DNA of 42,790 nt. Source: Anaerolineae bacterium. GTDB lineage: Bacteria; Chloroflexota; Anaerolineae; Anaerolineales; Anaerolineaceae. Both the position numbers and the translations under genes were made by a program. The notes beneath the pieces were generated by a model. The model made no database searches, was not told the origin of the DNA, and saw only the letters and a program-made list of their open reading frames with translations. This document shows positions 6,940 to 42,790 of the stretch, one piece after another. Where the stretch lies: NCBI GenBank assembly GCA_013177815.1, contig JABLXM010000008.1, positions 1 to 42,790 on the forward strand. Reading direction: 5' to 3'. The stretch's first letter is position 1. The number at the start of each line of letters is the position of its first letter.

Positions 6940-7385
6940 CCAAACATGCTCGTGCGTGTCCAGGCGGTCAATATCGTCCGCCCGCCGGGCGCCAGCACGC
7001 GCGCCATCTCGCGAATTGCAGCGAGCGGATCAGGGCAGTGGTGCAGGTACATGTTGGCGAAGACGGCGTCCAGGCTGTCATCCGGAAAGGGCAAAGCCAG
7101 CCCGTCCGCCAGCTCGAAGACCACATTCGCCATGCCGGAGAGGTTCTGGCGAGCCACTGCCAGCATCTCCGCCGAGCCATCCACCAGGTGGACACGCCTG
7201 ACCAGTGGCGCCAGGGCGGCGGCGATGAACCCGGTGCCACCGCCGATATCTGCGACTGCCATTTCCGGGCGCAGGTGCGCCCGCTGGATGGCTGCCTGGC
7301 GCACCCGCTCGGGGAAAAACCCCTCGCGCAGTGCATCCCATTCGCCGGCGACCTGTTTGAAATAAGAGGAAGTATTGGATTTCAT
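6936..7385 (-). pseudogene. SAM-dependent methyltransferase of ars operon, frameshifted
   Basis: The 149-residue ORF has the class I methyltransferase start: motif I ADIGGGTGFIAAAL, acidic strand HLVDGS, and PDDSLDAVFANMYLHHC. It ends abruptly after GGRTILTAWTRTSMFG. In the neighbouring frame the DNA reads DRLDTHEHVWMKAEMADEWL, which is the natural continuation of this family (LTDLDTHEH then WLGF). A single missing base near 6965 (ACCG-CCTG in place of an ACC GAC CTG-type sequence) explains the break. The lost C-terminal part is read as the N-terminus of the ArsM ORF. This could be a true inactivating mutation or an assembly error. Such methyltransferases often accompany ArsR regulators. Confidence 0.75.
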
Positions 7386-7409
7386 GATCGTGTTACCATC
7401 CTTGTCATT

Positions 7410-7425
7410 ATCGTAAAAATACGAT
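7410..7425. promoter_or_regulatory. ArsR operator, inside the ars operon
   Basis: ATCGTA-AAAA-TACGAT is a perfect inverted repeat with a 4-base spacer, 25 bases before the methyltransferase start. The same half-sites and spacing occur in front of arsR at 7754-7775, so this is very likely a second binding site of the same regulator. Confidence 0.78.
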
Positions 7426-7442
7426 GATCTAACCTAAAAAAA

Positions 7443-7748
7443 TCACTGGCAGCACTCGCTGAGCCAGTTGCCGATCTGATTCTTGAGCCAGCGTACCCCT
7501 TCCGTGTCGAGGCAATAGCAGGTTGCGGGTCCCTCGTACTCTCCCTGGATCAAACCCGCATCCCGCAGCACCTTGAGGTGCTGGCTGATGGTGGATTGCG
7601 CCAGCGGCGTGCTCTGCACGATGTCATTGGTGATGCAAGTTTGGTGTTCCGCCAGAAATTGGATGATGCGGAAACGCACCGGGTTGCCAAGCGCTTTGAG
7701 CATCCTCGCCAGGCGCTGCTGATCTTGAGAGAGGGCAATGGTATCCAT
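7443..7748 (-). CDS. arsR: ArsR-family metalloregulator
   Basis: This is a 101-residue winged-helix repressor of the ArsR/SmtB family. The core shows LARMLKALGNPVRFRIIQFL, the recognition helix QSTISQHLKVLRDAGL, and the wing GEYEGPATCYCL. Candidate As(III) ligands are Cys in QTCITND, the CYC pair in the wing and the terminal ECC. The classic ELCVCDL motif is absent, so the sensor site differs from the E. coli type. An inverted repeat sits 7 bases upstream of the start codon, suggesting autoregulation. The methyltransferase and arsM genes follow on the same strand. Confidence 0.88.
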   Translation of the reverse strand: MDTIALSQDQQRLARMLKALGNPVRFRIIQFLAEHQTCITNDIVQSTPLAQSTISQHLKVLRDAGLIQGEYEGPATCYCLDTEGVRWLKNQIGNWLSECCQ

Positions 7749-23083: not shown

Positions 23084-24268
23084 ATGGCGAATTTAGAGAC
23101 GACTTTTACCGGTATTCACTTCCCCAATCCCTTCTTGGTATCGTCATCTCCATCCACCACCAACGCCCACATGATCAAGAAAGCCTTTCGCGCCGGCTGG
23201 GGCGGCGTGGTGCTCAAAACGGTTGGGCTGGAGCCAACCCCCAACCCCAGCCCGCGCATGCAGGTCGTTAAAGATGGGCGTGATAAGCGGGGTCTGGTGA
23301 ACATCGAATTGATCAGCGACCTGACGGCGTTGCAGTGGGTGGATGAGTTGAAGAGCATCCGCGATGAGTTCCCTGAGCGACCGCTGATCGCCAGCATCAT
23401 GGGCGGCGGCAGGGCTGAAGACTGGCAGGAGGTGGTTCACCTGCTGGAACCCCACGGCGTGAACGCTTTCGAAATGAACGTCTCGTGCCCGAACTTTGCC
23501 CACGGCGGGCGCGGCTCGCAACTGGGGCAGGACCCGGAATCGCTGGCATTGGCGATTGGCTGGGTGCGCCAGGCGACCAGCCTGCCGTTATGGGTCAAAC
23601 TGACACCCAACGTGGCGGACGTGACGCCGCTGGCACAGGTGGCGAAGGAGATGGGCGCGGATGCGGTCGTGGCGACCAACACACTTTCCGGCATGGCGGG
23701 TGTGGACCTGGAGTGCTTTGCCCCATTGCCAACCGTGGGTGGGATCGGCATCTTTGGTGGTTATAGTGGACCAGGTCTGAAGGCGGTGGCGCTACGCTGC
23801 GCCGCCAGCATTGGGCGCGCGGTCGATATCCCGCTGGCGGGCTGCGGCGGGATCAGCAAATGGCGCGATGCGGCGGAATACATGACGGTGGGCGCCAGCC
23901 TGGTGCAGGTGTGCACGGCGGTGATGTGGAACGGTTATGAGATCATCGCTAAGTTGACCAAAGGGTTGAACGATTACCTGGACCAACACGACCTTGCCAC
24001 GGTAAACGACCTGGTGGGCAAGGCGCTGCCGCAACTCAAGAATTATCCCGATATCGACCTGAACATCAAGCTGCTGGCATATGTCGATCCCAACAAATGC
24101 AACGGTTGCGGCTTGTGCGTGAGGGCGTGTGATGCGGGCGGGTTCGAAGCGCTGTTCATACAGGATAAGAAAGCGGTGGTGGATGTGCTGGTGTGCGATG
24201 GGTGCGGGTTGTGCATTGGCATGTGTCCGACGGATGGGATCAGCATGGTGGCGAAAGCCGCACCTTAG
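23084..24268 (+). CDS. preA: Dihydropyrimidine dehydrogenase PreA-like subunit (FMN, 2x4Fe-4S)
   Basis: The N-terminal ~300 residues form a dihydroorotate dehydrogenase-like FMN barrel (FTGIHFPNPFLVSSSP, the catalytic-cysteine motif MNVSCPNF at Cys135, WVKLTPNV, LAGCGGI, GASLVQVCTAVM). The C-terminus carries two ferredoxin-type motifs, CNGCGLCVRAC and CDGCGLCIGMCP. This layout is that of PreA, which with PreT interconverts uracil/thymine and their dihydro forms. No preT gene is seen here, so the electron donor may be ferredoxin or another partner, possibly the AOR-like protein encoded next. GGAG precedes the ATG. Confidence 0.9.
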   Translation: MANLETTFTGIHFPNPFLVSSSPSTTNAHMIKKAFRAGWGGVVLKTVGLEPTPNPSPRMQVVKDGRDKRGLVNIELISDLTALQWVDELKSIRDEFPERPLIASIMGGGRAEDWQEVVHLLEPHGVNAFEMNVSCPNFAHGGRGSQLGQDPESLALAIGWVRQATSLPLWVKLTPNVADVTPLAQVAKEMGADAVVATNTLSGMAGVDLECFAPLPTVGGIGIFGGYSGPGLKAVALRCAASIGRAVDIPLAGCGGISKWRDAAEYMTVGASLVQVCTAVMWNGYEIIAKLTKGLNDYLDQHDLATVNDLVGKALPQLKNYPDIDLNIKLLAYVDPNKCNGCGLCVRACDAGGFEALFIQDKKAVVDVLVCDGCGLCIGMCPTDGISMVAKAAP

Positions 24269-24285
24269 TGACCAGGAGTAATGTT

Positions 24286-26190
24286 GTGCACGACAATAAC
24301 AACGGTTATGCCGGGAAGATTCTGTGGGTAGACCTGGCTGACAGGTCATTCCGCGAGGAAGAGACTGATAATTACAGGGAATGGATCGGTGGGCGGGGAT
24401 TGGGCTTGGCGTTGCTGGCGCGATTGCCGGACCTGGCTGCGGATGATCCGGCGAAACAACCCATCGCCATAACCAGCGGACTGCTTTCGGGCAGCGCCAT
24501 ACCCATGTCATCGCGTGCGGCTGTCACCGGACGCAACCAGCTATCCAACGGGATTTATTATTCCAATGTCGGCGGAGACTTTGGCTTGCGCATGAAGACA
24601 GCCGGTTACGATGCTGTCGTTCTCCGCAACGCCAGTTCCAGTCCGGTTTACCTACTGCTGGGCGAAAACGGACCCGAACTCAAGTCGGCAGACTCATTGT
24701 GGGGATTGCGTATCTCAGAAATGCGAGAGCGGTTGACCCAAACCTACCCCGACCGACCGTTCAGCTTCATTGGCATTGGTCCGGCGGGCGAGAACCTGGT
24801 GCGCATCTCCTGCCTGATGGTAGACCGCGCTCATGCGGCGGGCTGGGGCGGCGGCGGGCTGGTCTTCGGGTCGAAGCAACTCAAAGCAGTTGTCGCCTGC
24901 GGATACAAGAAGGTCGTATTCAAATATCCGGCAGAACTAACCCAAAAAGCACACCAACTGGATGCCAACATCGGTGCCTCGCCTGCCATGCAAGTGCTGA
25001 AGCGCGGCGGTACCCACGCATCGGCAGCGGCGGGCGGATTTTCAGGGAAAGTGCCCACGGCGGTCAAGAATATGCGCAATGAATTTCTGTCTCCTGAAGA
25101 ATCGAAACCAATTCAGGAAGCAGCCGCGCGCCAATGGGAGATCAAACGCGCGGGCTGCCCCGGCTGCAATCTGCAATGTCTGCATGTTTACCGTTTACCC
25201 ACAGCCGCCCAGGGTGAGTTGGAGATCGAAGGCATGCACGCCAATTCGGTGCGGGGGTTGGGTTCCAACCTGGGGGTCGATGATATCGAGGCGATCCTGC
25301 GGATGCACTGGCTGGTGAACGAGTATGGCATGGATGTCGATGGCGTTTCGTCCTCCATGGCGTTTGCTTTGGAGTGCGCCGAGAACGAACTGCTGCCGGT
25401 CGAACAGCCCGGCGGCGTGCGCCTGGAATGGGGGGATGCTGCCTCCCTTGTTCGCTTGACGGAACAAATTGCTCGTCGGGAGGGCTTCGGCGCATTGTTG
25501 GGAGAAGGAGCGTACCGGGCTGCCCAACAGGTCGGACCGGAGAGCATGGAATATGCGATGACCACAAAGAAAGTGGGCATCAACGAACAGGGCATCCGTT
25601 CACATCGCGGATGGGCGCTCGGCATCATGACGTCCACCCGCGGCGGTGGTCACCTGGGTGGCGCCGTCCAGTCTGAGAATCGGCAAATCAGCGCTGAAGA
25701 AGGCGCACGTCTCTTTGATAACCCCCTGGCAGGGAATCCGCAGGCGTATGAGGGAAAAGGCAGGATGGTCGCCTACAGCGAGGGTCTGAAAGCCATCATC
25801 GATAGCCTTGGATTATGCTATTTTGCTTATGGCTGGTACGACCGGGAGATCGCCAATATGAACGACCTGGCGGATTTGTATTTCGCCGCCAGTGGTCATC
25901 ATATCAGCGGTGAAGACCTGCACCATCAGGGATTGAGAGTTCACACCCTGGAGCGCTACCTGACGCACGTTTTTGGCGGGTTCGACCGGCGCGACGATAT
26001 GGTGCCAAAGCGATTTTTTGAGATGCCGAACGCGGATGGTCCATATGAGGGGGCAAAGCTTGACCGGGAAGCGGTGCAGCAGCAGTTGGATGAATATTAT
26101 GCTTTCCTTGGTTGGAATTCGTCCTCCGGGTTGCCGGATGCGGACGCGATCCACTCATACGATTTGGATAATTGGGTCATATTCGATTAA
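24286..26190 (+). CDS. Aldehyde ferredoxin oxidoreductase family (tungsten/molybdopterin) protein
   Basis: AOR-family enzymes bind a bis-pterin tungsten (or Mo) cofactor and a 4Fe-4S cluster and typically interconvert aldehydes and carboxylic acids with ferredoxin. The GTG at 24286, with AGGAG 7 bases before it, is chosen because earlier codons overlap preA. Visible blocks are GKILWVDLADRSF, IGGRGLGLALL, YYSNVGGDFGLRMKTAGYDAVV, GPAGENLVRISCLMVDR and LVFGSKQLKAVV. The cluster ligands are Cys291, Cys294 and Cys298 in CPGCNLQC with Cys511 in DSLGLC. The usual GRGGxGAVMGSK appears as GWGGGGLVFGSK. Length 634 is normal. Linkage to preA makes a reductive role on a pyrimidine-derived compound, or ferredoxin supply to PreA, plausible. 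Confidence 0.9.
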   Translation: MHDNNNGYAGKILWVDLADRSFREEETDNYREWIGGRGLGLALLARLPDLAADDPAKQPIAITSGLLSGSAIPMSSRAAVTGRNQLSNGIYYSNVGGDFGLRMKTAGYDAVVLRNASSSPVYLLLGENGPELKSADSLWGLRISEMRERLTQTYPDRPFSFIGIGPAGENLVRISCLMVDRAHAAGWGGGGLVFGSKQLKAVVACGYKKVVFKYPAELTQKAHQLDANIGASPAMQVLKRGGTHASAAAGGFSGKVPTAVKNMRNEFLSPEESKPIQEAAARQWEIKRAGCPGCNLQCLHVYRLPTAAQGELEIEGMHANSVRGLGSNLGVDDIEAILRMHWLVNEYGMDVDGVSSSMAFALECAENELLPVEQPGGVRLEWGDAASLVRLTEQIARREGFGALLGEGAYRAAQQVGPESMEYAMTTKKVGINEQGIRSHRGWALGIMTSTRGGGHLGGAVQSENRQISAEEGARLFDNPLAGNPQAYEGKGRMVAYSEGLKAIIDSLGLCYFAYGWYDREIANMNDLADLYFAASGHHISGEDLHHQGLRVHTLERYLTHVFGGFDRRDDMVPKRFFEMPNADGPYEGAKLDREAVQQQLDEYYAFLGWNSSSGLPDADAIHSYDLDNWVIFD

Positions 26191-26308: not shown

Positions 26309-27394
26309 ATGAAAAAGAATGCTGTTATTGCTCTCTTTTCGCTGTTGCTGGTGGGGGTGATGGTGCTCTCTGCCTGCGCACCGGCAGCGGAACCCACAGC
26401 AGCCGTTGAAACGGTGGTTGTGCAGGAAGTCGTTCAACAGACTGTGGTTGTGGAAGTGGAAAAAGTTGACCCGGCGGAAGGTTACAAACTCGCCAGCATC
26501 TACCCTGGCGTGATCACGGATGCAGACTACAACACCCTCGGGCACCTGGCTTCGACCGCCGTCCAATCTGACCTGGGTGTCGAGATGTCGTACTCGGAAG
26601 CGGTAGCCGTACCGGATGTGGACCGTGTGATGCGCGAGTACATCGATGGCGGCTATAACATCATCTTCGCCCACGGCGGTCAATTCCTGACCGCGGTCAT
26701 GGACCTGGCGCCCCAGTTCCCGGAAGTGGCGTTCATCTGTGAAGTGGATAACCCGGTGGAAAACCAGCCCGAAAACCTGTGGCTGATCGACCGCAACTTC
26801 CACACGCCTTTCTACGTCATCGGTTACATTGCAGCCAAGACCACCCAGACCGGCAAGATCGGTTATATCGGCGGGTTGAACATGCCTTTCACCTTCCAGG
26901 AACGACACGCCGTTGAACAGGCGATTGCTGATTCCGGTATGGATGTCGAATTCGTACATGAGGTAACCGGCGACTTCAACGACCCAACCAAGGGTCGCCA
27001 GGTGGCGGATACCATGATCGGTCAGGGCGTCGATGTCATCATCGGCTCAATGAACCTGGGCATGCTGGGCATCTTCGAGGGCGCCAAGGCAGCCAGCACG
27101 GAGACCGAGAAGGTGCTGGTGAGTGCCAAGTACATCGATAAGAAGAATTTTGCCCCCAACAATTACATGACCTCGGCGCTGTACGACTTCACCGACCCCT
27201 TGAAAGAGATCGTCACGAGGATCATGGAAGGTGAAATGGGCGGTTACTATAACCTGGAATTCGGCAAGGGCGTCAACATCCAGATGCCGCTGTCGAACGT
27301 TGACCCGGCGCTCGACGCTGAAGCTGCCCAGATCATCGATAAGATCCTTTCCGGCGAAATCGTTGTCGTCAAGGACTCTACGCCTTACGAATAA
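26309..27394 (+). CDS. BMP-family nucleoside-type ABC transporter lipoprotein
   Basis: This is a substrate-binding lipoprotein of the BMP (PnrA/TmpC) family, which mostly binds nucleosides. The signal peptide and lipobox are clear (MKKNAVIALFSLLLVGVMVLSAC). A Val/Glu-rich linker typical of Chloroflexota binding proteins follows, then the BMP fold (DYNTLGHLASTA, FAHGGQF, YVIGYIAAKTTQTGKIGYIGG, VDVIIGSMNLG). GAGGAAG precedes the ATG. The 118-bp AT-rich gap before it may hold its own promoter. ATPase and permease genes follow in order. Confidence 0.9.
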   Translation: MKKNAVIALFSLLLVGVMVLSACAPAAEPTAAVETVVVQEVVQQTVVVEVEKVDPAEGYKLASIYPGVITDADYNTLGHLASTAVQSDLGVEMSYSEAVAVPDVDRVMREYIDGGYNIIFAHGGQFLTAVMDLAPQFPEVAFICEVDNPVENQPENLWLIDRNFHTPFYVIGYIAAKTTQTGKIGYIGGLNMPFTFQERHAVEQAIADSGMDVEFVHEVTGDFNDPTKGRQVADTMIGQGVDVIIGSMNLGMLGIFEGAKAASTETEKVLVSAKYIDKKNFAPNNYMTSALYDFTDPLKEIVTRIMEGEMGGYYNLEFGKGVNIQMPLSNVDPALDAEAAQIIDKILSGEIVVVKDSTPYE

Positions 27395-27429
27395 ATCGGT
27401 CACGTTGGTAGCCTGACCCAATGATCATT

Positions 27430-27463
27430 TCTCCATCCCCCTGTCAGACCAGGGGGATGGAGA
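27430..27463 (+). terminator. Hairpin between binding-protein and ATPase genes
   Basis: TCTCCATCCCCCTG pairs perfectly with CAGGGGGATGGAGA across a 6-base loop (14-bp stem). A T-run starts only about 13 bases later, so it may be a partial terminator or a 3' stabiliser of the binding-protein message, allowing more binding protein than permease. Confidence 0.6.
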
Positions 27464-27537
27464 ACAACAGAAATCATTTTTTTTATTTTTCACGAAATGT
27501 AATGATCACTTATTAATCTATAGGAGGCTGACCATTG

Positions 27538-29085
27538 ATGGAGCAAAATGAAGTAATCCTCCAAATGGTCGACATCTGCAAAGCCTTTGACGGCAACCAG
27601 GCTTTGGACCATGTCAATTTTGAACTCGGTGCCCGTGAGATTCATGGCTTGCTGGGCGGCAATGGCGCCGGCAAGACCACGTTGATGAACGTGCTCTATG
27701 GTCTTTACAAGCAGGACAGCGGTGATATCCTGCTGAAGGGCAAGAAACTGCGCATCGCTTCGCCCCGAGATGCCATCCGCAACGGCATTGGCATGGTACA
27801 CCAGCACTTCCTTCAGATCAACAATTGGTCGGTGGTGCAGAATGTTGTGCTGGGATCTTCCGTACAAAATAAATGGACGATGAATCTGGCGCCGGAAGTA
27901 GCGAAGTTGCAGAAATTGTGCGACCGGTTTGCGATCGATATAGACCTGCAAGTGGAAGTGGGCGAACTGCCGATGGGCACCCGCCAGAAAGTGGAGATCC
28001 TCAAAGCGCTTTACCGCGGCGTCGATATCCTGATCCTGGATGAACCGACCACCAACCTGACGCCGCAAGAGGTGGATGCGCTGTTTGTATCCCTGAAGGT
28101 GATGGTCGACGAGGGTTTGAGCATCGTGTTCATCACGCACAAACTGCGTGAGGTTTTGAGCGTGTGCGACCGCATTACCTTGCTGCGAAACGGCAAGAAC
28201 GTCACCTGCATGCCACGCAGCGAAGCCAACGAAGAAACGCTGGTGCGCGGCATGGTGGGTGAAGACCTGAACGTCAAGGACAGCGTCATTTTCTCGAAGG
28301 AAATCCGCGAGGGAACCAAGATCGATGAGGTCGTCACGCCGGTGCTGGAGGTCAAGGGTTTGCGGCACGTGACCGAGCAAGGCATCGAACGGTTGAAGGA
28401 TGTCACCTTCAGCATCCACCCGGGCGAGATCTTCGGTATCGCCGGGGTGGCTGGCAACGGGCAGTTGGAGCTGGCGGAAACACTGGTGGGTGTGCAATCC
28501 AAGGCGGGTGGCACCATCAAGTACAACGGGCGTGAATTGAACATGGTCACGGCAGAATTGTTGCAGCAAGGGTTGACCTATATTCCCGAAGACCGTCTGG
28601 GCGATGGCTACCTGCCGAAAGTGAACGTGGCGCAAAACCTGATCCTGGGCGCGCAACACAAGCAGCCGTACAGCAAGAACGGTTTCATCGACTGGCGCAA
28701 GGTCTTCGAAGCTTCCTGGGAAATGATCAAGGAATACAACATTAAGACCAGTGGACCAAAGGATACGGCGGCGAACCTTTCCGGCGGCAATATCCAGCGC
28801 GTGATGATCGCGCGGGCGTTCTCGCATGTGGGGGATTCGCTGATGTTGGCGCACTGCCCAACGCGCGGGCTGGATATCCCATCGATGGATTTTGTATACA
28901 AGAAATTGCTGGCGCGCAAGATGCAAGGCTACGCCACGCTGCTCATCTCGGAAGACCTGGATGAATTGCTGCTGCTGTGCGACCGCATCGGCGTGATGTA
29001 CCGCGGTGAACTGGTGGGTATTCTTCACCGCAGCCAGTTCGATAAATATGAGATTGGGAGGATGATGAGCGGTGTCAAAAGCTAA
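27538..29085 (+). CDS. Nucleoside-type ABC transporter ATPase (two fused nucleotide-binding domains)
   Basis: The 515-residue protein has two ABC domains, as in NupO/RbsA-type ATPases. Domain 1 has Walker A GGNGAGKTT and Walker B ILILDEPT with a degenerate signature (LPMGTRQKVEI). Domain 2 lacks a true Walker A (GVAGNGQLELAE) but has signature NLSGGNIQRVMIARA and a Walker B without the catalytic Glu (LMLAHCPTRGLD). This asymmetry is normal for the family. AGGAGG lies 10 bases before ATG 27538; a TTG three bases... that is, one codon... upstream at 27535 is an alternative. It energises uptake by the two permeases that follow. Confidence 0.9.
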   Translation: MEQNEVILQMVDICKAFDGNQALDHVNFELGAREIHGLLGGNGAGKTTLMNVLYGLYKQDSGDILLKGKKLRIASPRDAIRNGIGMVHQHFLQINNWSVVQNVVLGSSVQNKWTMNLAPEVAKLQKLCDRFAIDIDLQVEVGELPMGTRQKVEILKALYRGVDILILDEPTTNLTPQEVDALFVSLKVMVDEGLSIVFITHKLREVLSVCDRITLLRNGKNVTCMPRSEANEETLVRGMVGEDLNVKDSVIFSKEIREGTKIDEVVTPVLEVKGLRHVTEQGIERLKDVTFSIHPGEIFGIAGVAGNGQLELAETLVGVQSKAGGTIKYNGRELNMVTAELLQQGLTYIPEDRLGDGYLPKVNVAQNLILGAQHKQPYSKNGFIDWRKVFEASWEMIKEYNIKTSGPKDTAANLSGGNIQRVMIARAFSHVGDSLMLAHCPTRGLDIPSMDFVYKKLLARKMQGYATLLISEDLDELLLLCDRIGVMYRGELVGILHRSQFDKYEIGRMMSGVKS

Positions 29086-30124
29086 TCAGACCCCGGAAAA
29101 TAAGTTTTCGGTCAGGAAGTTGTTGAGCCACCCGGTGATGTCCTATTTGCTGGCGATCCTGGCGGCATTCGTGGCATCCGGCATCTTCATCGCTTTGATG
29201 GGTTATGACCCGTTCAAAGCCTTCCAGACCATCTTGGTGACATCATTCCGGACACCAAACGGTTTTATCCAAACATTGCTCAAATGGGTGCCGCTGACGT
29301 TACTGGCGCTGGCTTTCACCGTGCCATATGCGACCATGAAGTTCAACATCGGTGGTGAAGGGCAACTGTTGATGGGCGCCATCGGTGCGACCATCGCCGG
29401 CATCCTGCTCAAAGGATTGCCGCCAATACTGATGGTGCCAGCGGTGCTGCTGGCTGGCACGCTGGCGGGCGCCATCTGGGGGTTTATTCCCGGCTGGTTG
29501 CTGTACCGCTATAAGATCAACGAGATCCTGACGACCGTACTGCTCAACTTTGTCACCTTCGCGCTGGTCAACTATATCGCCACCGAGGTCTACCCGAATC
29601 CGGAAGTCGGTCACCCCACCACCATCCGCATCGCAACCGAAGGCTGGCTGCCGATGCTGGTGGATAATCCACCCCTGCACTCCGGATTGATTTTGATGGT
29701 CATGGTTGCAATCGGCGTATATGCTTTCACCAATCGCTCGACGCGCGGTTACGAACTGGTGGCAACCGGCGCCAACCCGCGCGCGGCAGGGGTGTTCGGC
29801 ATCAACGTGCCGGTGATGTTCATGATGGGGCTGGTGATCGGCGGCGCGTTGGCGGGTCTGGCTGGCGGCATCGAGGTCGCCGGTATCCAACACCACCTGA
29901 TAGAAGGCATGCATTCCAACTTCAAGATCCTGGGCATTATCATCGGGCTGATCGCCAAGGGTAGCAGCCTGGCGGTGCCTTTTGTGGCGTTCTTCATCGC
30001 GGTGATGGAAGTGGGTGCCAGTGCCATGCAGCGTACCTTGAACATTCCGATCGAGATGGTCTACATCGTGGAAGCCCTGATCTTGCTGTTTGTGCTGCTG
30101 GTGGATGTGGTCAGAAGGAAATAA
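29072..30124 (+). CDS. Nucleoside-type ABC transporter permease (NupP/YufP-like)
   Basis: The 350-residue membrane protein has about nine or ten hydrophobic segments and the BPD_transp_2 family pattern, including FNIGGEGQLLMGAIGATIAG, the loop INEILTTVLLNFV, and TGANPRAAGVFGINV followed by GGALAGLAGGIEVAG. It starts with GTG at 29072, overlapping the ATPase gene by 14 bases, with GGGAGGA upstream. It would form a heterodimeric channel with the next permease. Confidence 0.9.
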   Translation: MSKANQTPENKFSVRKLLSHPVMSYLLAILAAFVASGIFIALMGYDPFKAFQTILVTSFRTPNGFIQTLLKWVPLTLLALAFTVPYATMKFNIGGEGQLLMGAIGATIAGILLKGLPPILMVPAVLLAGTLAGAIWGFIPGWLLYRYKINEILTTVLLNFVTFALVNYIATEVYPNPEVGHPTTIRIATEGWLPMLVDNPPLHSGLILMVMVAIGVYAFTNRSTRGYELVATGANPRAAGVFGINVPVMFMMGLVIGGALAGLAGGIEVAGIQHHLIEGMHSNFKILGIIIGLIAKGSSLAVPFVAFFIAVMEVGASAMQRTLNIPIEMVYIVEALILLFVLLVDVVRRK

Positions 30125-30128
30125 GATT

Positions 30129-31070
30129 ATGGACCAAATACTTCACGAAGTCGCTTTCTTTCTAAAACAAATGATGCTGACGATGGTGCCGTTCATCCTG
30201 GCAGCGCAGGGTACCATGCTGGCGGGGCGGACGGGGGTATTCAATGTTGCTACCGAAGGCATCATGCTAACCACCGCTTCGGTCGGATTTATCATTGCAT
30301 TCCAGTCCAATAGCATTCTCTTAGGCATGGTTGCTGCCATGCTGGTGGGCGGGTTATTTGGTCTGGTCATGGCGTACATGACAACTTCATTGAAGTTGAA
30401 TCAGTTTGTCATCGGGCTGGCGTTCTTCTTTTTGGGCACCGGCATTTCGACCCTCATTCCCAAGTTGATCTTTGGTGTTTCGCTGGTTCAACCGGTCATC
30501 CCGACCTTACAAAACCTGCCCATCCCGCTGTTGAGCAAGATCCCATTCCTTGGGGATATCTTCTTCAACCAGAATATCCTGGTGTATGTCTCGGTGCTGG
30601 TTTCGCTTCTCCTATATTACTTCCTGTACCGCACCAGTTTTGGGTTGGAGATGCGCTCGGTGGGTGAAAACCCCAAAATGGCGGATAGCCTGGGTATCAA
30701 CGTTTTTCGTCAACGCTACGTAGCGATCATCATCGGATGCATGCTGATTGGGCTGGCTGGCGTCTACCTGCCGATGGTTTACACCGGCACGTTCACTGAA
30801 CAGATAACCAAGGGGCGCGGTTGGCTGGCGAGCGCGCTGTGCTTCTTCGGCGGCTGGCGACCGCTCCCAATTCTGTATGGCTCACTGTTCTTTGCAGGCA
30901 TCGAGGTGTTGGCGTACCGGGTGCAGATCGGTACATCGGCAATTCCATACCAGTTCTTGATCATGCTGCCATATGTTGCCACCATCGTGGTGATGGTGCT
31001 GACTTTCAAACGCTCGACCACGCCGAAATTCCTGGGCAGCAATTACGACCGGGAGAAACGTACGTTGTAG
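30129..31070 (+). CDS. Nucleoside-type ABC transporter permease (NupQ/YufQ-like)
   Basis: The ATG at 30129 follows AAGGAAAT and lies 4 bases after the first permease stop; the earlier ORF-track start overlaps that gene. The 313-residue product shows family blocks AGRTGVFNVATEGIMLTTASVGF, SLKLNQFVIGLAFFFLGTG, and EMRSVGENPKMADSLGINV with IGLAGVYLPM. It completes a BMP-ATPase-permease-permease importer set. Confidence 0.9.
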   Translation: MDQILHEVAFFLKQMMLTMVPFILAAQGTMLAGRTGVFNVATEGIMLTTASVGFIIAFQSNSILLGMVAAMLVGGLFGLVMAYMTTSLKLNQFVIGLAFFFLGTGISTLIPKLIFGVSLVQPVIPTLQNLPIPLLSKIPFLGDIFFNQNILVYVSVLVSLLLYYFLYRTSFGLEMRSVGENPKMADSLGINVFRQRYVAIIIGCMLIGLAGVYLPMVYTGTFTEQITKGRGWLASALCFFGGWRPLPILYGSLFFAGIEVLAYRVQIGTSAIPYQFLIMLPYVATIVVMVLTFKRSTTPKFLGSNYDREKRTL

Positions 31071-36294: not shown

Positions 36295-36410
36295 TAATGA
36301 GCATTAATAAAAAGTGAGAGAATACTATTGCAAACTATTGCAATCCCATGCAAATAGAAGTAAACAACAACATCAATCGCGGGTCGAAGACCCATCGGGA
36401 TCAGCCTTTC

Positions 36411-37169
36411 ATGGACACATTGTTGACGGCGAAACAAGTACAGGAACTATTGAACGTCGATCGCACGACCATCTACCGTATGCTGAAGGACGGCAGGTTG
36501 GCAGGCGTGAAGGTTGGGCAGCATTGGCGCTTCCGCGCGCACGAGGTGGAGGAATTGATGCAAGGTGGCAGCGCCAGCCGGATGGAATCAGACCGGGTGG
36601 ATGTGAGCGTGCTGCCGCTGCATTGCATGCAGCCGGTGCAGGATGTGTTCGGCGAGATCGCCGAGGTCGGCTCCGTCACGACGAATACCAATGGTGAGCC
36701 ATTGACGCGCATCAGCAACTGTAGCGACTTTTGCAAACTGATCATGGGCAGCGCCGAGGGGCGCGCGGCGTGCATGTCTGCCTGGCGCAGCCTGGTCGAG
36801 CGCCGGCAGGCGGTCACAGAGTTCGTGACTTGTCACGCCGGGTTGCAATATGCCAGCGCGCCGATCGAGGTGCAGGGAGAACTGGTTGCCATTCTGGTGG
36901 CGGGGCAGTTCTTCACGAGCCAACCAGATCCGGAGGAAGAGGCGCAGCGCATTCAGACGTTGGCGAAGAAATTCGATGTGGACCCGCAACTGCTGGCGCA
37001 GGCTGCCGGACATCTTTCGGTATTGGATGAGCGCAAGGTTTCCCAGATCGGACAATGGTTGCAGCGCGTGGCGCTGACTTTCAACCAGATCAGCAGTGAA
37101 CGCGCCGGTCTAATGCATCGTTTACGGCAAATTGCCGAAATGAGTGATATCGAACTTACAAATCTATAG
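36411..37169 (+). CDS. Excisionase-type HTH plus PocR-domain regulator
   Basis: The start at 36411 gives MDTLLTAKQVQELLNVDRTT, the usual opening of an HTH_17 (MerR/Xis-like) domain; a longer reading from 36348 has no ribosome-binding site. Residues ~1-55 form the DNA-binding domain (TIYRMLKDGRLAGVKVGQHWRF). Residues ~85-220 form a PocR sensory domain (RISNCSDFCKLIMGSAEGRAAC, FVTCHAGLQYASAPIEVQGELVAILVAGQFF) with its conserved cysteines and histidine. PocR domains sense small molecules or redox-active ligands. It ends 9 bases before tusA and probably controls the sulfur-carrier/hydrogenase cluster. Confidence 0.86.
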   Translation: MDTLLTAKQVQELLNVDRTTIYRMLKDGRLAGVKVGQHWRFRAHEVEELMQGGSASRMESDRVDVSVLPLHCMQPVQDVFGEIAEVGSVTTNTNGEPLTRISNCSDFCKLIMGSAEGRAACMSAWRSLVERRQAVTEFVTCHAGLQYASAPIEVQGELVAILVAGQFFTSQPDPEEEAQRIQTLAKKFDVDPQLLAQAAGHLSVLDERKVSQIGQWLQRVALTFNQISSERAGLMHRLRQIAEMSDIELTNL

Positions 37170-37178
37170 GAGGTAAAC

Positions 37179-37412
37179 ATGTCGGAGAAATTTGATCAGG
37201 AATTGGATTGCAGTGGTTTGGCTTGCCCGATGCCTATCTTGAAGACCAAGAAGGCAGTGGACGGATTGAATTCCGGAGAGGTGCTCAAGATGACTGCCAC
37301 CGACCCGGGCTCGTTGCCGGACGTGCAAGCCTGGACTGCCAAAACTGGTCACGAACTGGTCAGCCATGCGCAGGACGGCGACAAATTCATCTTCTACATC
37401 AAGAAGAAATAA
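37179..37412 (+). CDS. tusA: TusA-family sulfur carrier protein
   Basis: The 77-residue protein is a complete TusA/SirA fold with the active-site motif LDCSGLACPMPILKTKKAV. The cysteine in CPMP carries a persulfide in the family. A second cysteine (LDCSG) precedes it. AGGAGG lies just upstream of the ATG. It follows the regulator directly and is separated from dsrE2 by a hairpin. TusA next to DsrE and LbpA-like genes is typical of cytoplasmic sulfur-transfer pathways. Confidence 0.93.
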   Translation: MSEKFDQELDCSGLACPMPILKTKKAVDGLNSGEVLKMTATDPGSLPDVQAWTAKTGHELVSHAQDGDKFIFYIKKK

Positions 37413-37442: not shown

Positions 37443-37492
37443 AAATTAATCAATAACTATCTGAATTGTAAAAATAATAATTGGAGGAACCT

Positions 37493-37975
37493 ATGGAAGC
37501 AAAACGATTGGCAATCATCGCGGCGCACGGCTCGATGGATGCCGCTTACCCGCCGTTGATCCTTGCGACGGCAGCAGCAGCGATGGACATGGAGGTAGCC
37601 ATTTTCTTCACGTTCTTCGGCTTGGAGATCCTCAAGAAGGGCAAAGCCGATAAATTGCAGGTCGCGCCGATCGCTAACCCAGCCATGCCGCAACCGGTGC
37701 CCGGCATCTCGGTGCCCAACATCATTGGCGTGCTGCCCGGCATGACCGCCGTGGCGACCGGCATGATGAACGGTTGGATGAGCAAAGCCAATGTGGCAAA
37801 GTTGAGCGAATTGTTGGAGATGGCGGTCGAGATGAATGTGCGCTTGATTGCCTGCCAGATGACCATGGACGTGATGGGCATCAAAAAGGATGAACTGATC
37901 GACAGTATCGAGATCGGTGGGGCAGCGACCTTCCTGGAATATGCCAGCAAAGATGCCATCTCGCTGTCGTTCTAA
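37493..37975 (+). CDS. DsrE2-like sulfur-transfer protein
   Basis: ATG 37493 has TTGGAGG upstream; the TTG start of the ORF track lies inside that site. The 160-residue protein is of the DsrE/DsrF-like group often called DsrE2. It starts LAIIAAHGSMDAAYPPLILATAAAAMDMEVAIFFTFFGL and has the conserved cysteine motif IACQMTMDVMGI. Hydrophobic segments around residues 15-50 and 75-95 suggest membrane association. DsrE2 proteins accept or pass persulfide sulfur with TusA. Confidence 0.87.
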   Translation: MEAKRLAIIAAHGSMDAAYPPLILATAAAAMDMEVAIFFTFFGLEILKKGKADKLQVAPIANPAMPQPVPGISVPNIIGVLPGMTAVATGMMNGWMSKANVAKLSELLEMAVEMNVRLIACQMTMDVMGIKKDELIDSIEIGGAATFLEYASKDAISLSF

Positions 37976-38005: not shown

Positions 38006-38365
38006 ATGGACTCAGTATTGATCGTTATGACCAGTGGACCGGATACCCCTCGCCGATGTGCGACGCCTTTCTTTTTTGCCACCCTGGCGGCTGCCATGGA
38101 ATATGAGGTGACGATGTTCTTCACCATCGACGGCACGCTGCTGCTGAAAAAGGGCATGGCAGAGACGGTTTACCCCAAAGCCGGCGGCAAACCGGTGAGC
38201 GATTTCATCCAGGATGCGCTGGACGCGGGCGTCAAGTTCACCGCCTGCACCGCCTCCACCGAACTGCACGACCTCAAACCCGAAGACCTGATCGACGGCA
38301 TCAAGATGGTGGGTGGGGCAGCCATGTGGCAGATGGCGGAAGACAGCAAAACGCTGACATTCTAG
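38006..38365 (+). CDS. DsrE-family protein
   Basis: The 119-residue protein is a single DsrE domain: VLIVMTSGPDTPRRCATPFFFATLAAAMEYEVTMFF, then the candidate active cysteine in FTACTASTELHDL and the closing GGAAMWQMAEDSKTLTF. Related DsrE proteins are sulfurtransferases forming homo- or hetero-multimers. AAAGGAGA precedes the ATG. It follows dsrE2 by 30 bases in the same direction. Confidence 0.85.
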   Translation: MDSVLIVMTSGPDTPRRCATPFFFATLAAAMEYEVTMFFTIDGTLLLKKGMAETVYPKAGGKPVSDFIQDALDAGVKFTACTASTELHDLKPEDLIDGIKMVGGAAMWQMAEDSKTLTF

Positions 38366-38386: not shown

Positions 38387-38830
38387 ATGGCTAATGTGCG
38401 CGGATGTAACCTGCCCGAGGAGCTGTACTACAACATCGAGAAGCATGTTTGGGCAAAGTTGATGGACGATGGCACGGTGCGCGTTGGGATGACCGCGGTA
38501 GCCGCCAAACTGGCGGGCAGCAACCTGGCGGGTGTGACGGTGAAAGCCAAAGCCATCGGGCAGGAGGTGGCGCAGGGCAAGAGCGTTGCCACGGTGGAGA
38601 GCAGCAAGTTCGTTGGTCCGGTGCCGGCGCCGGTGACTGGTGTGCTGCTGCGTGGGAACGATAAGTTGGCTGGCGATCCCAACCTGGCATCGACCGACCC
38701 GTACGGAGAAGGCTGGATCGCAGAGATGAAGCCGTCCAACTGGGATGGTGAAAATGGTGTGCTGGTGACGGGCGCGGATGGCGTCGCGGCGTACCAGCAA
38801 AAACTGGAAGCGGACAATATTTCCTGTTAA
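38387..38830 (+). CDS. LbpA/GcvH-like lipoyl-carrier protein
   Basis: The 147-residue protein is a hammerhead lipoyl domain. The lipoylation lysine is Lys74 in VATVESSKFVGPVPAPVTG, and the flanks HVWAKLMDDGTVRVGMTAVA and DPYGEGWIAEM match the GcvH fold. Length, the GKSVATVE block and DPYGEGW resemble LbpA, the carrier of the sulfur-oxidising sHdr pathway, more than housekeeping GcvH, and there are no glycine-cleavage genes here. The neighbours are TusA/DsrE proteins and a hydrogenase with an HdrD-like subunit. It ends in a cysteine (NISC). AAAGGAGC precedes the ATG. Confidence 0.83.
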   Translation: MANVRGCNLPEELYYNIEKHVWAKLMDDGTVRVGMTAVAAKLAGSNLAGVTVKAKAIGQEVAQGKSVATVESSKFVGPVPAPVTGVLLRGNDKLAGDPNLASTDPYGEGWIAEMKPSNWDGENGVLVTGADGVAAYQQKLEADNISC

Positions 38831-38863: not shown

Positions 38864-39985
38864 ATGGCGGAAGATAGTATCTATGAACGATTGAAACAGC
38901 AGGGTGTAACGCGGCGCGATTTCCTCAAGTTGTGCGGAGCGGTAGCCGGGGCGATCGGGCTCTCCGGTTTGCCGCCGGTGCAAGCCAGCGGGTTGCCGGT
39001 TACATTGGCGCGCTCCGGCTACAAGGCGCGTGACCAGGTGGCGCGTGTGCTGGAGACCAAATCGCGCCTGCCGGTCATCTGGCTGGAATTCCAGGATTGT
39101 GCCGGCTGCACCGAGGCGCTCTCGCGTTCGCATTCCCCCACGCTGGTCAATCTGGTGTTGAACGCCATCACGGTGGAATATCACGAGACGCTTTCGGCGG
39201 CGGCGGGTTTCCAGGCGGAGGGTGCCAAGCACAACGCAATGGAGAAATACGCCGGGCAATACGTGCTGGTGGTGGAAGGCAGCATCCCGATGGCGTTGGA
39301 TGGCGCCTACTGCACCATTGGCGGGCGTAGCGCGCTGGATATCCTCAAGGAATCGGCTGCCGGGGCGGCGGCGATCATCGCCACCGGCAACTGCGCTGCA
39401 TTCGGTGGGCTGCCGAAAGCCAAGCCCAACCCCACCGATGCGAAAGGCGTTTGGGAAATCGTGACCGATAAACCGGTGGTCAACATCCCCGGCTGCCCGG
39501 CGATCCCGGAGGTGTTCACTGCGGTGGTGGCGCACTTCCTGGTGTTTGGCGCGCTGCCGGAGTTGGACAGCCTGAACCGACCGAAGACGTTCTACGGCAA
39601 GACGATCCATGACCGCTGCCTGCGGCGACCGTTCTACGAGGCGGGCAAGTTTGCCCTTTCCTACGATGACGAGGGCGCCAAAGAAGGCTGGTGTCTGTAC
39701 AAACTGGGCTGCAAGGGTCCAACCACCTATAACGCCTGCGCCTCCCTCAAATGGGATGGCGGTCTGTCGTTTCCAATCCAAGCCGGTCACCCCTGCCTGG
39801 GTTGCTCGGAACCCGGCTTCTGGGATGGCGGCGGGTTCTACCAGGGTCAATCGGCACCGCTCAGTCGTCCTGACCTGACGGTGGTGGGCGCCGCTGCGGC
39901 TGCCGGTGCGGTTGCCGGCGTGGCAGTTGGCGCTGCCAACCAGGCGCAGAAGAAAGCCGCCAAAAAGGCGGAGAAAGCCAAATAG
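38864..39985 (+). CDS. hynS: [NiFe] hydrogenase small subunit, Tat-exported, membrane-anchored
   Basis: A Tat signal (TRRDFLKLCG, residues 16-25) places the enzyme outside the cytoplasmic membrane. The proximal cluster begins CAGCTEALSRS (Cys79, Cys82), then GNCAAFGG and PGCPAIPE. The distal and medial cluster regions are HDRCLRRPFYEAGKFA, GWCLYKLGCKGPTTYNAC and AGHPCLGCSEPGFWD. The two extra cysteines of oxygen-tolerant group 1d enzymes are not seen around the proximal motif. The C-terminus has a small-residue hydrophobic segment (VVGAAAAAGAVAGVAVGAA) and a Lys-rich tail. It belongs with isp1, isp2 and the large subunit as in group 1e Isp-type hydrogenases. AAGGAGG lies upstream. Confidence 0.92.
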   Translation: MAEDSIYERLKQQGVTRRDFLKLCGAVAGAIGLSGLPPVQASGLPVTLARSGYKARDQVARVLETKSRLPVIWLEFQDCAGCTEALSRSHSPTLVNLVLNAITVEYHETLSAAAGFQAEGAKHNAMEKYAGQYVLVVEGSIPMALDGAYCTIGGRSALDILKESAAGAAAIIATGNCAAFGGLPKAKPNPTDAKGVWEIVTDKPVVNIPGCPAIPEVFTAVVAHFLVFGALPELDSLNRPKTFYGKTIHDRCLRRPFYEAGKFALSYDDEGAKEGWCLYKLGCKGPTTYNACASLKWDGGLSFPIQAGHPCLGCSEPGFWDGGGFYQGQSAPLSRPDLTVVGAAAAAGAVAGVAVGAANQAQKKAAKKAEKAK

Positions 39986-39994
39986 GAGGAGCGC

Positions 39995-40672
39995 ATGAAC
40001 TGGACCGAAATCTTGGCATTTACCCGCGGACCATTGTTCCAGGTGGCGCTGGTCATCTTCGTGGCTGGTATGCTCTATCGCCTGGTGCGGGTGTTGATGT
40101 TGGGCTGGCAGAAGGATAAAGTGCCAGCCAAAGGCAGCAAAGCCGTCGGGGTGGTCAAGTCCTTTCTCAAGGGTCTCCTGATCTTCCCGTTCATCCCCTG
40201 GGTCAAACGTACTTTCACCAAAAACCCGGTCATTTACCTGGCGGGTGGGTTGTTCCACCTCTCGCTGTTCGTGGTCTTGATTTTGGGAGCGGCGCACATG
40301 CTGGTATGGAAGAGCCTGCTGGGCTTCGGCTGGTGGACGCTGCCGCTGCCGATCGTGGACTGGATGGCGGCGGTGGGCATCGTCGCGATGGTGGCTTTGT
40401 TCATCAACCGCCTGTTCAACCCGGTGTTGAAGCTGCTGACCGGACCGGCAGAGTGGTTGAACCTGGCGTTCGTCTTCTTGCCGATGGTGAGCGGTTACAT
40501 GCTGACCCACCATCTGTTCTTCCGCTACGAGGTGATGTTCAGCATCCACATGCTGACGGTGGACTTCCTGTTGATCTGGATCCCGTTGAGCCGCATCTCG
40601 CACTTCATGTTCTATTTCTTCTCGCGGGCGATCCACGGGCAGGAATTTGGCAAACGCGCCGTAAATCCATAG
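39995..40672 (+). CDS. isp1: Isp1-like membrane cytochrome b subunit
   Basis: The 225-residue protein has about five membrane segments in the NarI/DsrM/HdrE style. Histidines sit at likely heme-b positions: LFHLSLFVVL, GAAHMLVW, MLTHHLFF, SIHMLTV and ISHFMFYFF. In Isp hydrogenases this subunit carries electrons between the outer hydrogenase dimer and the cytoplasmic Isp2. The gene lies between the small subunit (9-base gap) and isp2 (10-base gap) with AGGAG in front of the ATG. Confidence 0.87.
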   Translation: MNWTEILAFTRGPLFQVALVIFVAGMLYRLVRVLMLGWQKDKVPAKGSKAVGVVKSFLKGLLIFPFIPWVKRTFTKNPVIYLAGGLFHLSLFVVLILGAAHMLVWKSLLGFGWWTLPLPIVDWMAAVGIVAMVALFINRLFNPVLKLLTGPAEWLNLAFVFLPMVSGYMLTHHLFFRYEVMFSIHMLTVDFLLIWIPLSRISHFMFYFFSRAIHGQEFGKRAVNP

Positions 40673-40682
40673 GAGGCACAGG

Positions 40683-41942
40683 ATGAAATCAGTCGAAGCA
40701 ATGAACACATTCGTACAGGATACCGGCGGTTGGGTGGCTTCGCAGTTGGAAGCCTGCACCCGCTGCGGAATGTGCGCCGAAGCCTGCCACTTCTACCAGG
40801 CGAGCGGTGTACCGGAGTACGCGCCGGTTTGGAAGATGGAACTGCTGCGCCGGGCGTACGAGCAAAAGTTCACTTTGATCGGCAAGGTCAAGGTCGCACT
40901 GGGCGTTGACAAAGCCGTCAGCGACCAGGATCTGGAAGAATGGAGTAAGTACCTCTACTACGCCTGCACAGTTTGCAATAAGTGTTCGATGGTCTGCCCG
41001 ATGGGCATCGATATCGGCTCGCTGATCGCAGAAGTGCGCGCCGGTATGGCGGCGGCGGGGGTGGTGCCGGATGATCTGATGGCAGCCGTCAACAAGCAGG
41101 TCGAAGAAGGCAGCCCGCTGGGCGTCACCGATGACGTGTTCGAATCGCGCATGGAGTGGGTGGCGGACGAGTGGGAAGAAGACCTGCCGATGGACAAGAA
41201 AGGCGCCGATACGCTGGTGGTCTTCTCGTCCATCGAGATCATGAAGTTCCCCACCAATATCGCCGCCATTGCCAAGATCCTCAACAAAGCCGGCGAGAAC
41301 TGGACCTTGAGCAGCAAGGCGCGCGAGATCGTCAACTTCGGTTTCTACGAGGGCAGCCACGAGCATACCAAAATGTTCCTGGAACGCGTCTTCGACGGGG
41401 CGAAGGAACTGGGCGTCAAGAAGATCGTAGTGACCGAGTGCGGTCACGCCTATGATGCCATCCGCTGGCACGCCCACAACATGATGGACGTACCGGATAT
41501 GGAGATCACGCACATTGTTGGCTTGATCGGCGAATACGTCGATAGCGGGCGCATCAAGCTGAAGGCGGGTGCGCTGGATAACGGCAAGACCTACACCTTC
41601 CATGACGCCTGCAAGATCCAGCGCAAAGGCGGGCACATCAATGAACCCCGCCAGGTGATGAAGATCCTGGCGCCTAAGAGCTTCAAGGAAATGAGCCCGA
41701 ACCGCGAAGAAGCCATCTGCTGTGGTGGCGGTGGCGGTGTGATTGCCATCAAGGACGCCGATGCGCTGCGCTACCAGACCTTCGAGTTGAAGGTGGCGCA
41801 GGTGAATCAGGTTGGCGCCGATACGGTGGTCATGTCGTGTTCGAACTGCCGCTTGCAGTACACCGACTGCGTGGAACATTTCAATTTGGATTGGAAGGTG
41901 GCTGGTTTGAGTCAACTGGTCGCCGATTCGATCATGGATTAG
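40683..41942 (+). CDS. isp2: Isp2-like HdrD/CCG-domain iron-sulfur protein
   Basis: The 419-residue protein has two 4Fe-4S motifs: CTRCGMCAEAC (Cys25-35) and CTVCNKCSMVCPMG (Cys95-105). CCG-type segments follow. The first is reduced to VVTECGHAYDA; the second is full (FHDACKIQR, ICCGGGGG, MSCSNCRLQ) and would bind a non-cubane 4Fe-4S cluster as in HdrB/HdrD and DsrK. Such a site handles disulfide or persulfide chemistry. There is no signal peptide, so it is cytoplasmic, docked to Isp1. ATAGGAGG precedes the ATG. Confidence 0.9.
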   Translation: MKSVEAMNTFVQDTGGWVASQLEACTRCGMCAEACHFYQASGVPEYAPVWKMELLRRAYEQKFTLIGKVKVALGVDKAVSDQDLEEWSKYLYYACTVCNKCSMVCPMGIDIGSLIAEVRAGMAAAGVVPDDLMAAVNKQVEEGSPLGVTDDVFESRMEWVADEWEEDLPMDKKGADTLVVFSSIEIMKFPTNIAAIAKILNKAGENWTLSSKAREIVNFGFYEGSHEHTKMFLERVFDGAKELGVKKIVVTECGHAYDAIRWHAHNMMDVPDMEITHIVGLIGEYVDSGRIKLKAGALDNGKTYTFHDACKIQRKGGHINEPRQVMKILAPKSFKEMSPNREEAICCGGGGGVIAIKDADALRYQTFELKVAQVNQVGADTVVMSCSNCRLQYTDCVEHFNLDWKVAGLSQLVADSIMD

Positions 41943-41952
41943 GAGGTGAAAA

Positions 41953-42273
41953 ATGTCAGCCTTCACGATCACACCGGTTGAAAAAGGGATCATGCGTTGC
42001 CAGCACACTGCTCCGATGTCCCACGAGGATGTACGAGCCTTGGCGGCTTTCCTGCACGATTACCGCGGTAAATTGTTAGTGGACCTTCTCGGTACGACCG
42101 GCGAAGAATGTATGCAGAACTTGAAGAATTTTCGCCCGATGATGCCCACTACCGCCATCTTCGGGGTCAAGATCGGCGCTACGGCGCTGGATGTCCCTGA
42201 GAGTTACTATACCCATGAGGTGCGCGCCTTCGATACCGAAGAGGAAGCGTTAACCTGGTTGCGCAACCAATAG
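41953..42273 (+). CDS. Small SpoIIAA-like/STAS-like protein inside the hydrogenase operon
   Basis: The 106-residue protein has alternating strands and helices (SHEDVRALAAFLHDYRGKLLVDLLG...EECMQNLKNF) and a C-terminal FDTEEEALTWLRNQ, which closely resembles the end of SpoIIAA-like/STAS-like domains. It has no metal or heme motif. It lies exactly between isp2 and the large subunit, each 9-10 bases away with its own AGGAGG, so it is part of the operon. Its role is unknown; assembly, regulation or docking are possible. Confidence 0.7.
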   Translation: MSAFTITPVEKGIMRCQHTAPMSHEDVRALAAFLHDYRGKLLVDLLGTTGEECMQNLKNFRPMMPTTAIFGVKIGATALDVPESYYTHEVRAFDTEEEALTWLRNQ

Positions 42274-42282
42274 GAGGAAAGC

Positions 42283-42790
42283 ATGGCAGAAAGAATAGTC
42301 GTTGATCCAATCACCCGCATCGAAGGGCATTTGCGCATCGAGGCTGAACTGGGCGCTGATAGCACCATCCAGCAAGCCTATTCCTCCGGAACCATGGTGC
42401 GCGGCATCGAGATCATCCTCAAAGGGCGGGACCCACGCGAAGCGTGGGCGTTCGCCCAGCGCGCCTGCGGGGTGTGCACCACGGTGCACTCGTTCGCGTC
42501 GATCCGCTCGGTGGAAGACGCCCTAAAGATACAGATACCCAAGGCAGCCAACCTGATGCGCAACATGATGATCGCGCAGCAGTACGTGCACGACCACGTG
42601 ATGCACTTCTACCACCTGCATGCGCTGGATTGGGTGGACGTGGTCTCGGCGTTGAGCGCCGACCCGGCGGAAACCGCCCGCATCCAGCAATCGATCTCGC
42701 CCTGGCAGAACGCCTCACCGGGCTACTTCAGCGATATCCGCAACAAGGTGCAGGCAATCGTCGATAGCGGGCAATTGTCGATCTTCGCCA
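42283..42790 (+). CDS. hynL: [NiFe] hydrogenase large subunit (partial, 5' end)
   Basis: The gene runs off the right edge of the window after 169 codons. It starts MAERIVVDPITRIEGHLRIE, the standard opening, and has the L1 motif RACGVCTTVHS with two of the four cysteines that hold the NiFe site. HDHVMHFYHLHALDWVDVVSAL is typical of group 1 uptake enzymes. The L2 motif and the C-terminal processing site are outside the window. AGGAGG lies 7 bases before the ATG. Confidence 0.94.
   Translation, partial: MAERIVVDPITRIEGHLRIEAELGADSTIQQAYSSGTMVRGIEIILKGRDPREAWAFAQRACGVCTTVHSFASIRSVEDALKIQIPKAANLMRNMMIAQQYVHDHVMHFYHLHALDWVDVVSALSADPAETARIQQSISPWQNASPGYFSDIRNKVQAIVDSGQLSIFA

Follow-up and report, generated by a model that had tools for sequence, protein, structure and literature searches.

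In PMC6067878 and PMC10332631, LbpA-type lipoyl carriers are described solely as part of the sHdr system of sulfur oxidation. Their hallmarks, as given by Cao et al. (2018, PMC6067878), are a lipoylation lysine and a pair of conserved cysteines, one close to each end of the protein, which are absent from the glycine-cleavage H protein GcvH, and the sHdr carriers have TusA/DsrE neighbours and dedicated lipoate attachment genes nearby. The Isp-type (group 1e) hydrogenases of Thiocapsa and Acidithiobacillus ferrooxidans are encoded in the order hydS-isp1-isp2-hydL or hynS-isp1-isp2-hynL, with a b-type cytochrome, an HdrD-like Isp2 subunit and a link to sulfur. In the DsrMK-DsrC system of sulfate and sulfite reducers, a membrane cytochrome and a CCG protein act on a protein-bound sulfur carrier. 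The locus analysed here shares features with each of these systems, and we propose that its LbpA-family carrier is probably part of a module built around an Isp-type (group 1e-like) [NiFe] hydrogenase and devoted to sulfur, in which H2 would reduce carrier-bound sulfur.

The window, i.e., the whole stretch of DNA that was analysed, comprises 42,790 nucleotides of an Anaerolineae bacterium (assembly GCA_013177815.1, contig JABLXM010000008.1). The carrier is encoded on the forward strand at 38387-38830 by an ORF with an ATG start and 147 residues, and the protein matches Pfam GCV_H in a profile search (E 6e-28). An earlier note on this DNA had called it an LbpA-type carrier and pointed to the VESSKFVG motif, which indeed places the lipoylation lysine at residue 74. 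K74 and the hallmark cysteines C7 and C147 are invariant in an alignment of 31 sequences (the window carrier and 30 homologues of 59-83% identity), a conservation far beyond chance by which the ORF is judged to be real. All three residues are found in 32 of 32 hydrogenase-linked carriers, and an equivalent of K74 is also present in the LbpAs of sHdr clusters; the cysteines are missing in all five GcvH sequences aligned. Since K74, C7 and C147 match the hallmarks of PMC6067878, the carrier is by its sequence an LbpA. The terminal Cys147, which had been noted as unusual, is instead to be expected because a C-terminal cysteine is a defining feature of LbpA (PMC6067878). The DPYGEGW motif is also present in the carrier, but it is not diagnostic of LbpA as had been suggested, as DPYG is common to GcvH proteins. 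The AlphaFold model is confident (mean pLDDT 93) and has the H-protein fold, with 1onl as the best structural match (Foldseek, TM 0.80/0.92), while a PDB sequence search with the carrier returned GcvH entries only and no LbpA structure.

Fold (TM about 0.8) and lysine position are thus what the carrier shares with GcvH, whereas its LbpA cysteines, tree position and genome context differ. It is 52% identical to the LbpA of an Acididesulfobacter sHdr cluster (locus L036) and 34% identical over 110 residues to the GcvH of its own genome, a housekeeping protein encoded on contig C133 directly before gcvPA/gcvPB. In a tree of 77 rows, where few alignment columns leave the inner forks weak, a branch supported at 100/96 separates the GcvH rows and three orphan rows from the others. 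The hydrogenase-linked carriers form one group (98/99), which also takes in five orphan LbpA-like proteins and is nested among the LbpAs of sHdr clusters. Forcing the group onto GcvH was rejected by the AU test (p-AU 0.003), so the comparison with GcvH and LbpA sequences that the earlier note had recommended gave no clustering with housekeeping GcvH. In agreement with that note, no gcvP, gcvT or sHdr gene was found in the carrier's neighbourhood within the window; none of sHdrA, B1, B2, C1 and C2 lies in the window, and sHdrA was not found in the organism's own genome at E<=1e-40 (assembly 89% complete). Linkage to shdr genes, the setting of every LbpA described to date, characterizes the pathway more than the protein itself. 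By its residues and phylogenetic position the carrier is of the LbpA type and not GcvH. A housekeeping GcvH is ruled out by the separate gcvP-linked GcvH, the tree, the AU test and the LbpA cysteines.

The carrier lies within a cluster of genes on the forward strand which begins with a regulator combining HTH_17 and PocR sensory domains (36348-37169; Pfam PocR 8e-32, HTH_17 4e-15), the first cluster gene in most relatives. It is followed by a 77-residue TusA sulfur carrier (37179-37412; Pfam TusA 1.3e-25) whose CPMP cysteine C16 is invariant (27/27), a DsrE2-like sulfurtransferase (37481-37975; DrsE_2 2.5e-49, NF047629 under cut-off) with C125 invariant (28/28), and a DsrE-like sulfurtransferase (38006-38365; DsrE 8.7e-17) with C18 and C81 invariant (31/31). 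These TusA and DsrE genes just upstream had been left out when the carrier was described in the earlier note. Downstream follow the [NiFe] hydrogenase small subunit HydS (38864-39985; TIGR00391 9e-129), which carries a twin-arginine (TAT) signal scoring 25.6 bits, and the TmcC/HmcE-like membrane b-type cytochrome Isp1 (39995-40672), with five predicted transmembrane segments, six histidines invariant in 30 of 30 and a seventh in 29 of 30. The DsrK/HdrD-like Isp2 (40683-41942; CCG 2e-13) combines a pair of [4Fe-4S] motifs with a single complete CCG motif in its C-terminal part (C310, C346, C347, C386, C389); DsrK is the nearest model in the profile search, at 240 bits and under the cut-off of 400. 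Isp2 is the sole CCG-domain protein found near the carrier, as had been stated before. Between isp2 and hydL lies a small STAS-like protein (41953-42273) which had no family match in profile searches and is present in about a third of relatives.

The gene for HydL is cut by the contig end after its first 169 residues (42283-42789). Its C-terminal part is found on the reverse strand of contig C86 (7788-8915), with about 34 residues missing between the two parts; next on the same strand come HyaD (7186-7698) and a lipoate ligase of the two-domain LplA type (6105-7157). That C86 continues the window cluster we infer from matching gene order in relatives and not from overlapping sequence. The [NiFe]-binding cysteine motifs of HydL are divided between the two contigs, with RACGVC lying in the window and DPCMAC on C86. 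Across relatives, conservation extends to most cysteines of TusA, DsrE, HydS and Isp2, including all of those in predicted active-site or metal-binding motifs. By its HydS-Isp1-Isp2-HydL order and the predicted Tat export of HydS, together with these motifs, the hydrogenase would be of the Isp type and group 1e-like.

When GTDB genomes were scanned, 30 loci with this gene arrangement were obtained, mostly from Chloroflexota MAGs and with one each from Aminicenantota and Acidobacteriota, among which L025/L026 and L029/L030 are near-duplicates; genome searches added L056, L090 and L091. Nearly all genomes with the cluster are MAGs. The recurring order, with some losses, is PocR regulator, TusA, two to three DsrE, LbpA, HydS, Isp1, Isp2, (STAS-like), HydL, HyaD, lipoate ligase and HypA/B. 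As this order is found in about 34 loci, mostly of Chloroflexota MAGs, a chance neighbour or a misassembly is ruled out. In 298 genomes of the class, the ten closest LbpA matches (at least 275 bits) and the ten best Isp2 matches (at least 778 bits) share the same ten contigs, where the two genes are spaced by 1.85-2.30 kb. A Fisher test on this co-occurrence was not counted as evidence because related genomes are not independent samples. LbpAs scoring 145-185 bits are mostly found on contigs with sHdrA, and one genome (G089) has both the hydrogenase-linked and the sHdr system, on separate contigs. At the level of gene order, the association between LbpA and the hydrogenase is robust. The earlier idea of a lipoyl arm serving a hydrogenase, new in kind, therefore holds as far as the link itself is concerned, which recurs in these loci, but the carrier family is known and only the partner is new.

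The lipoate attachment genes vary between clusters. The LplA-type ligase is found in 22 cluster loci in addition to the own genome; the ligase here is mostly a two-domain LplA and not, as beside sHdr LbpA, sLpl with LipS1/S2. The exceptions are G089 (locus L077), where sLpl-LipS1 follows the hydrogenase genes, and G352 (locus L091), where sLpl-LipS1-LipS2 does and a weak LplA match is found too. Two distinct lipoate-attachment gene sets beside one module argue that lipoylation matters there. As a point against the proposed module, the in-cluster two-domain LplA scores 133.8 bits, below the NCBI equivalog cut-off of 280, whereas previously tested LbpAs were unmodified by the canonical E. coli or B. 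subtilis machineries and modified only by the sLpl ligases of sulfur oxidizers (PMC6067878). Canonical LipA (contig C150) and a LipB-like protein (C119) are encoded in the own genome. The search for lipoate assembly genes that the earlier note had proposed found a ligase in the same cluster, on C86 and thus outside the DNA on which that note was based. A LipS2 query, in a search with no positive control, had no match in the own genome.

Some loci contain parts of the cluster only. L057, a single case, has HydS-Isp1-Isp2-HydL-HyaD-HypA-HypB with TusA, DsrE, LbpA and the ligase all absent; the sulfur-lipoyl genes are therefore missing as one block. Conversely, L053-L055 have the order TusA-DsrE-DsrE-DsrM-like-DsrK-like-LbpA without a hydrogenase or sHdr, and LbpA therefore pairs with a DsrK-type protein independently of the hydrogenase. 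A DsrMK-type complex is in these loci paired with a lipoyl carrier. In three other loci, a transporter gene of the SLAC1/TDT family separates hydL from hyaD (L005:13376-14527, L006:13389-14495, L088); this family includes sulfite exporters.

The proposed function builds on the position of the carrier between the sulfurtransferases TusA/DsrE and HydS-Isp1-Isp2-HydL, with a lipoate-protein ligase in the same cluster. The in-cluster ligase would lipoylate K74, and TusA/DsrE would load sulfane sulfur onto the dihydrolipoyl arm and/or C7 and C147. H2 would be oxidized by HydSL outside the membrane, and the electrons would cross the membrane via the b-hemes of Isp1 to Isp2, whose non-cubane cluster (single CCG site) might act on the cytoplasmic side and reduce a persulfide, trisulfide or disulfide bound to the lipoyl arm. 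H2S would then be released and energy conserved. This would be analogous to DsrMK acting on DsrC, but with H2 as donor through HydSL, lipoyl-LbpA instead of DsrC as the sulfur-bearing substrate, and no DsrAB in the cluster. We infer lipoylation, substrate, partner contact and direction from gene content and conserved residues. The reductive direction was chosen because H2 is the stronger reductant and Isp-type hydrogenases are tied to sulfur reduction. Group 1e hydrogenases are linked to sulfur respiration (PMC7735108), and H2-dependent sulfur reduction is described for the Thiocapsa enzyme (PMC10892978). In its most specific form, the proposal is an additional type of energy metabolism that depends on lipoate: HydSL-Isp1-Isp2 would be a membrane-bound H2:lipoyl-sulfur oxidoreductase and reduce LbpA-carried sulfur directly, allowing Chloroflexota and a few other bacteria to respire sulfane sulfur with H2 through a lipoyl arm attached to a protein; on this form our opinion is evenly balanced.

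The main rival is that the module runs in reverse, with LbpA-bound sulfane sulfur or thiols oxidized at Isp2 and the electrons leaving as H2, or with the hydrogenase venting excess reductant. The standard potentials of H+/H2 (about -414 mV), lipoamide (about -290 mV) and S0/H2S (about -270 mV) make H2 formation from lipoamide or sulfide donors uphill, and neither sHdr nor another sulfite-forming enzyme is found in the cluster. The direction could still be reversed because the links made to date tie LbpA to sulfur oxidation, where its role is established (PMC6067878, PMC10332631), and group 1e enzymes are described as bidirectional (PMC7735108). The SLAC1/TDT transporter of some clusters (L005/L006) would fit an oxidative product, and the own genome has an operon of SQR-like and DsrC-like proteins under a PocR paralogue. 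On balance, we consider reverse running unlikely. A further explanation would make LbpA a redox or sulfur-delivery factor that helps to make or protect the hydrogenase, by supplying Fe-S sulfur or a thiol reductant, rather than a substrate of energy metabolism. TusA/DsrE-type proteins can serve biosynthesis, which would suit such a role, and HyaD, HypA and HypB are also found in the hydrogenase cluster. However, the same carriers stand beside DsrMK-like proteins without a hydrogenase in L053-L055 as well as with sHdr, and the Isp hydrogenase of L057 has HyaD/HypAB and no LbpA, which makes a maturation factor distinctly improbable.

That the carrier is a spare glycine-cleavage H protein or a GcvH-like octanoyl relay, placed beside the hydrogenase by chance, could be argued from its GCV_H fold and family match, but a separate GcvH adjoins gcvPA/gcvPB, the carrier position is fixed in about 34 loci, and tree, AU test and LbpA cysteines contradict it; we give this explanation very little weight. 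The SirTM/LplA2 operons for lipoylation-dependent ADP-ribosylation in Gram-positive pathogens likewise contain a GcvH-like protein (GcvH-L) with a neighbouring lipoate ligase, an arrangement also seen here. No sirtuin or macrodomain gene was seen among the recurrent neighbours, though, and the GcvH-L structure 5a35 matches the carrier model much more weakly than GcvH does, so that a GcvH-L-like carrier is scarcely credible.

With H2-dependent reduction of carrier-bound sulfur as the preferred reading, the carrier family at this locus is known, and what is new is its enzyme partner. Unlike the sHdr LbpAs, the carrier has its own clade in the tree, no sHdrABC beside it and an Isp-type hydrogenase as partner. 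The available descriptions of the Thiocapsa and A. ferrooxidans operons mention no lipoyl carrier, TusA, DsrE or lipoate ligase, which are fixed parts here, a comparison made by description only. In the open-access literature, as far as its text was available, we found no description of LbpA together with a hydrogenase operon, and such a link may be described elsewhere; the word "hydrogenase" occurs once each in PMC6067878 and PMC10332631, in the reference lists only. A fixed partnership of LbpA and an Isp-type hydrogenase would bring lipoate into hydrogen metabolism. A candidate for the natural substrate would then be at hand for Isp2 (the HdrD-like subunit of group 1e hydrogenases), whose sulfur link in purple bacteria still awaits confirmation according to PMC10892978, and the partnership would suggest a way in which uncultured Chloroflexota respire sulfur. 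Much of this is testable with purified proteins because the carrier, the ligase and the sulfurtransferases are small.

Other sulfur genes were observed in the same genome. On contig C140 (L086, 2-2790), an operon led by a second PocR-HTH regulator encodes an SQR/FCSD-like flavoprotein, a DsrC/TusE-like protein with a single cysteine and DsrE2, which suggests that this PocR type regulates sulfur genes. With a DsrC/TusE-like protein on C140, the idea that LbpA replaces an absent DsrC is ruled out. Elsewhere in the window, a dihydropyrimidine-dehydrogenase (PreA)-like ferredoxin protein lies beside an apparent aldehyde:ferredoxin oxidoreductase (23084-26190, by eye), and the next genes appear to encode a BMP-type ABC transporter (26309-31070, by eye). 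In an actinomycetotal locus (L038:3-9647), three LbpA-like proteins are found with LipS1/LipS2, a DsrE-like protein and an 811-residue cytochrome-CCG fusion, and no sHdr lies within that stretch. Finally, the orphan LbpA-like proteins of L058-L062 mostly have LysM/L,D-transpeptidase or sugar-kinase genes, identified by eye, as their neighbours, and three of them have lost both cysteines together while the lysine is kept.
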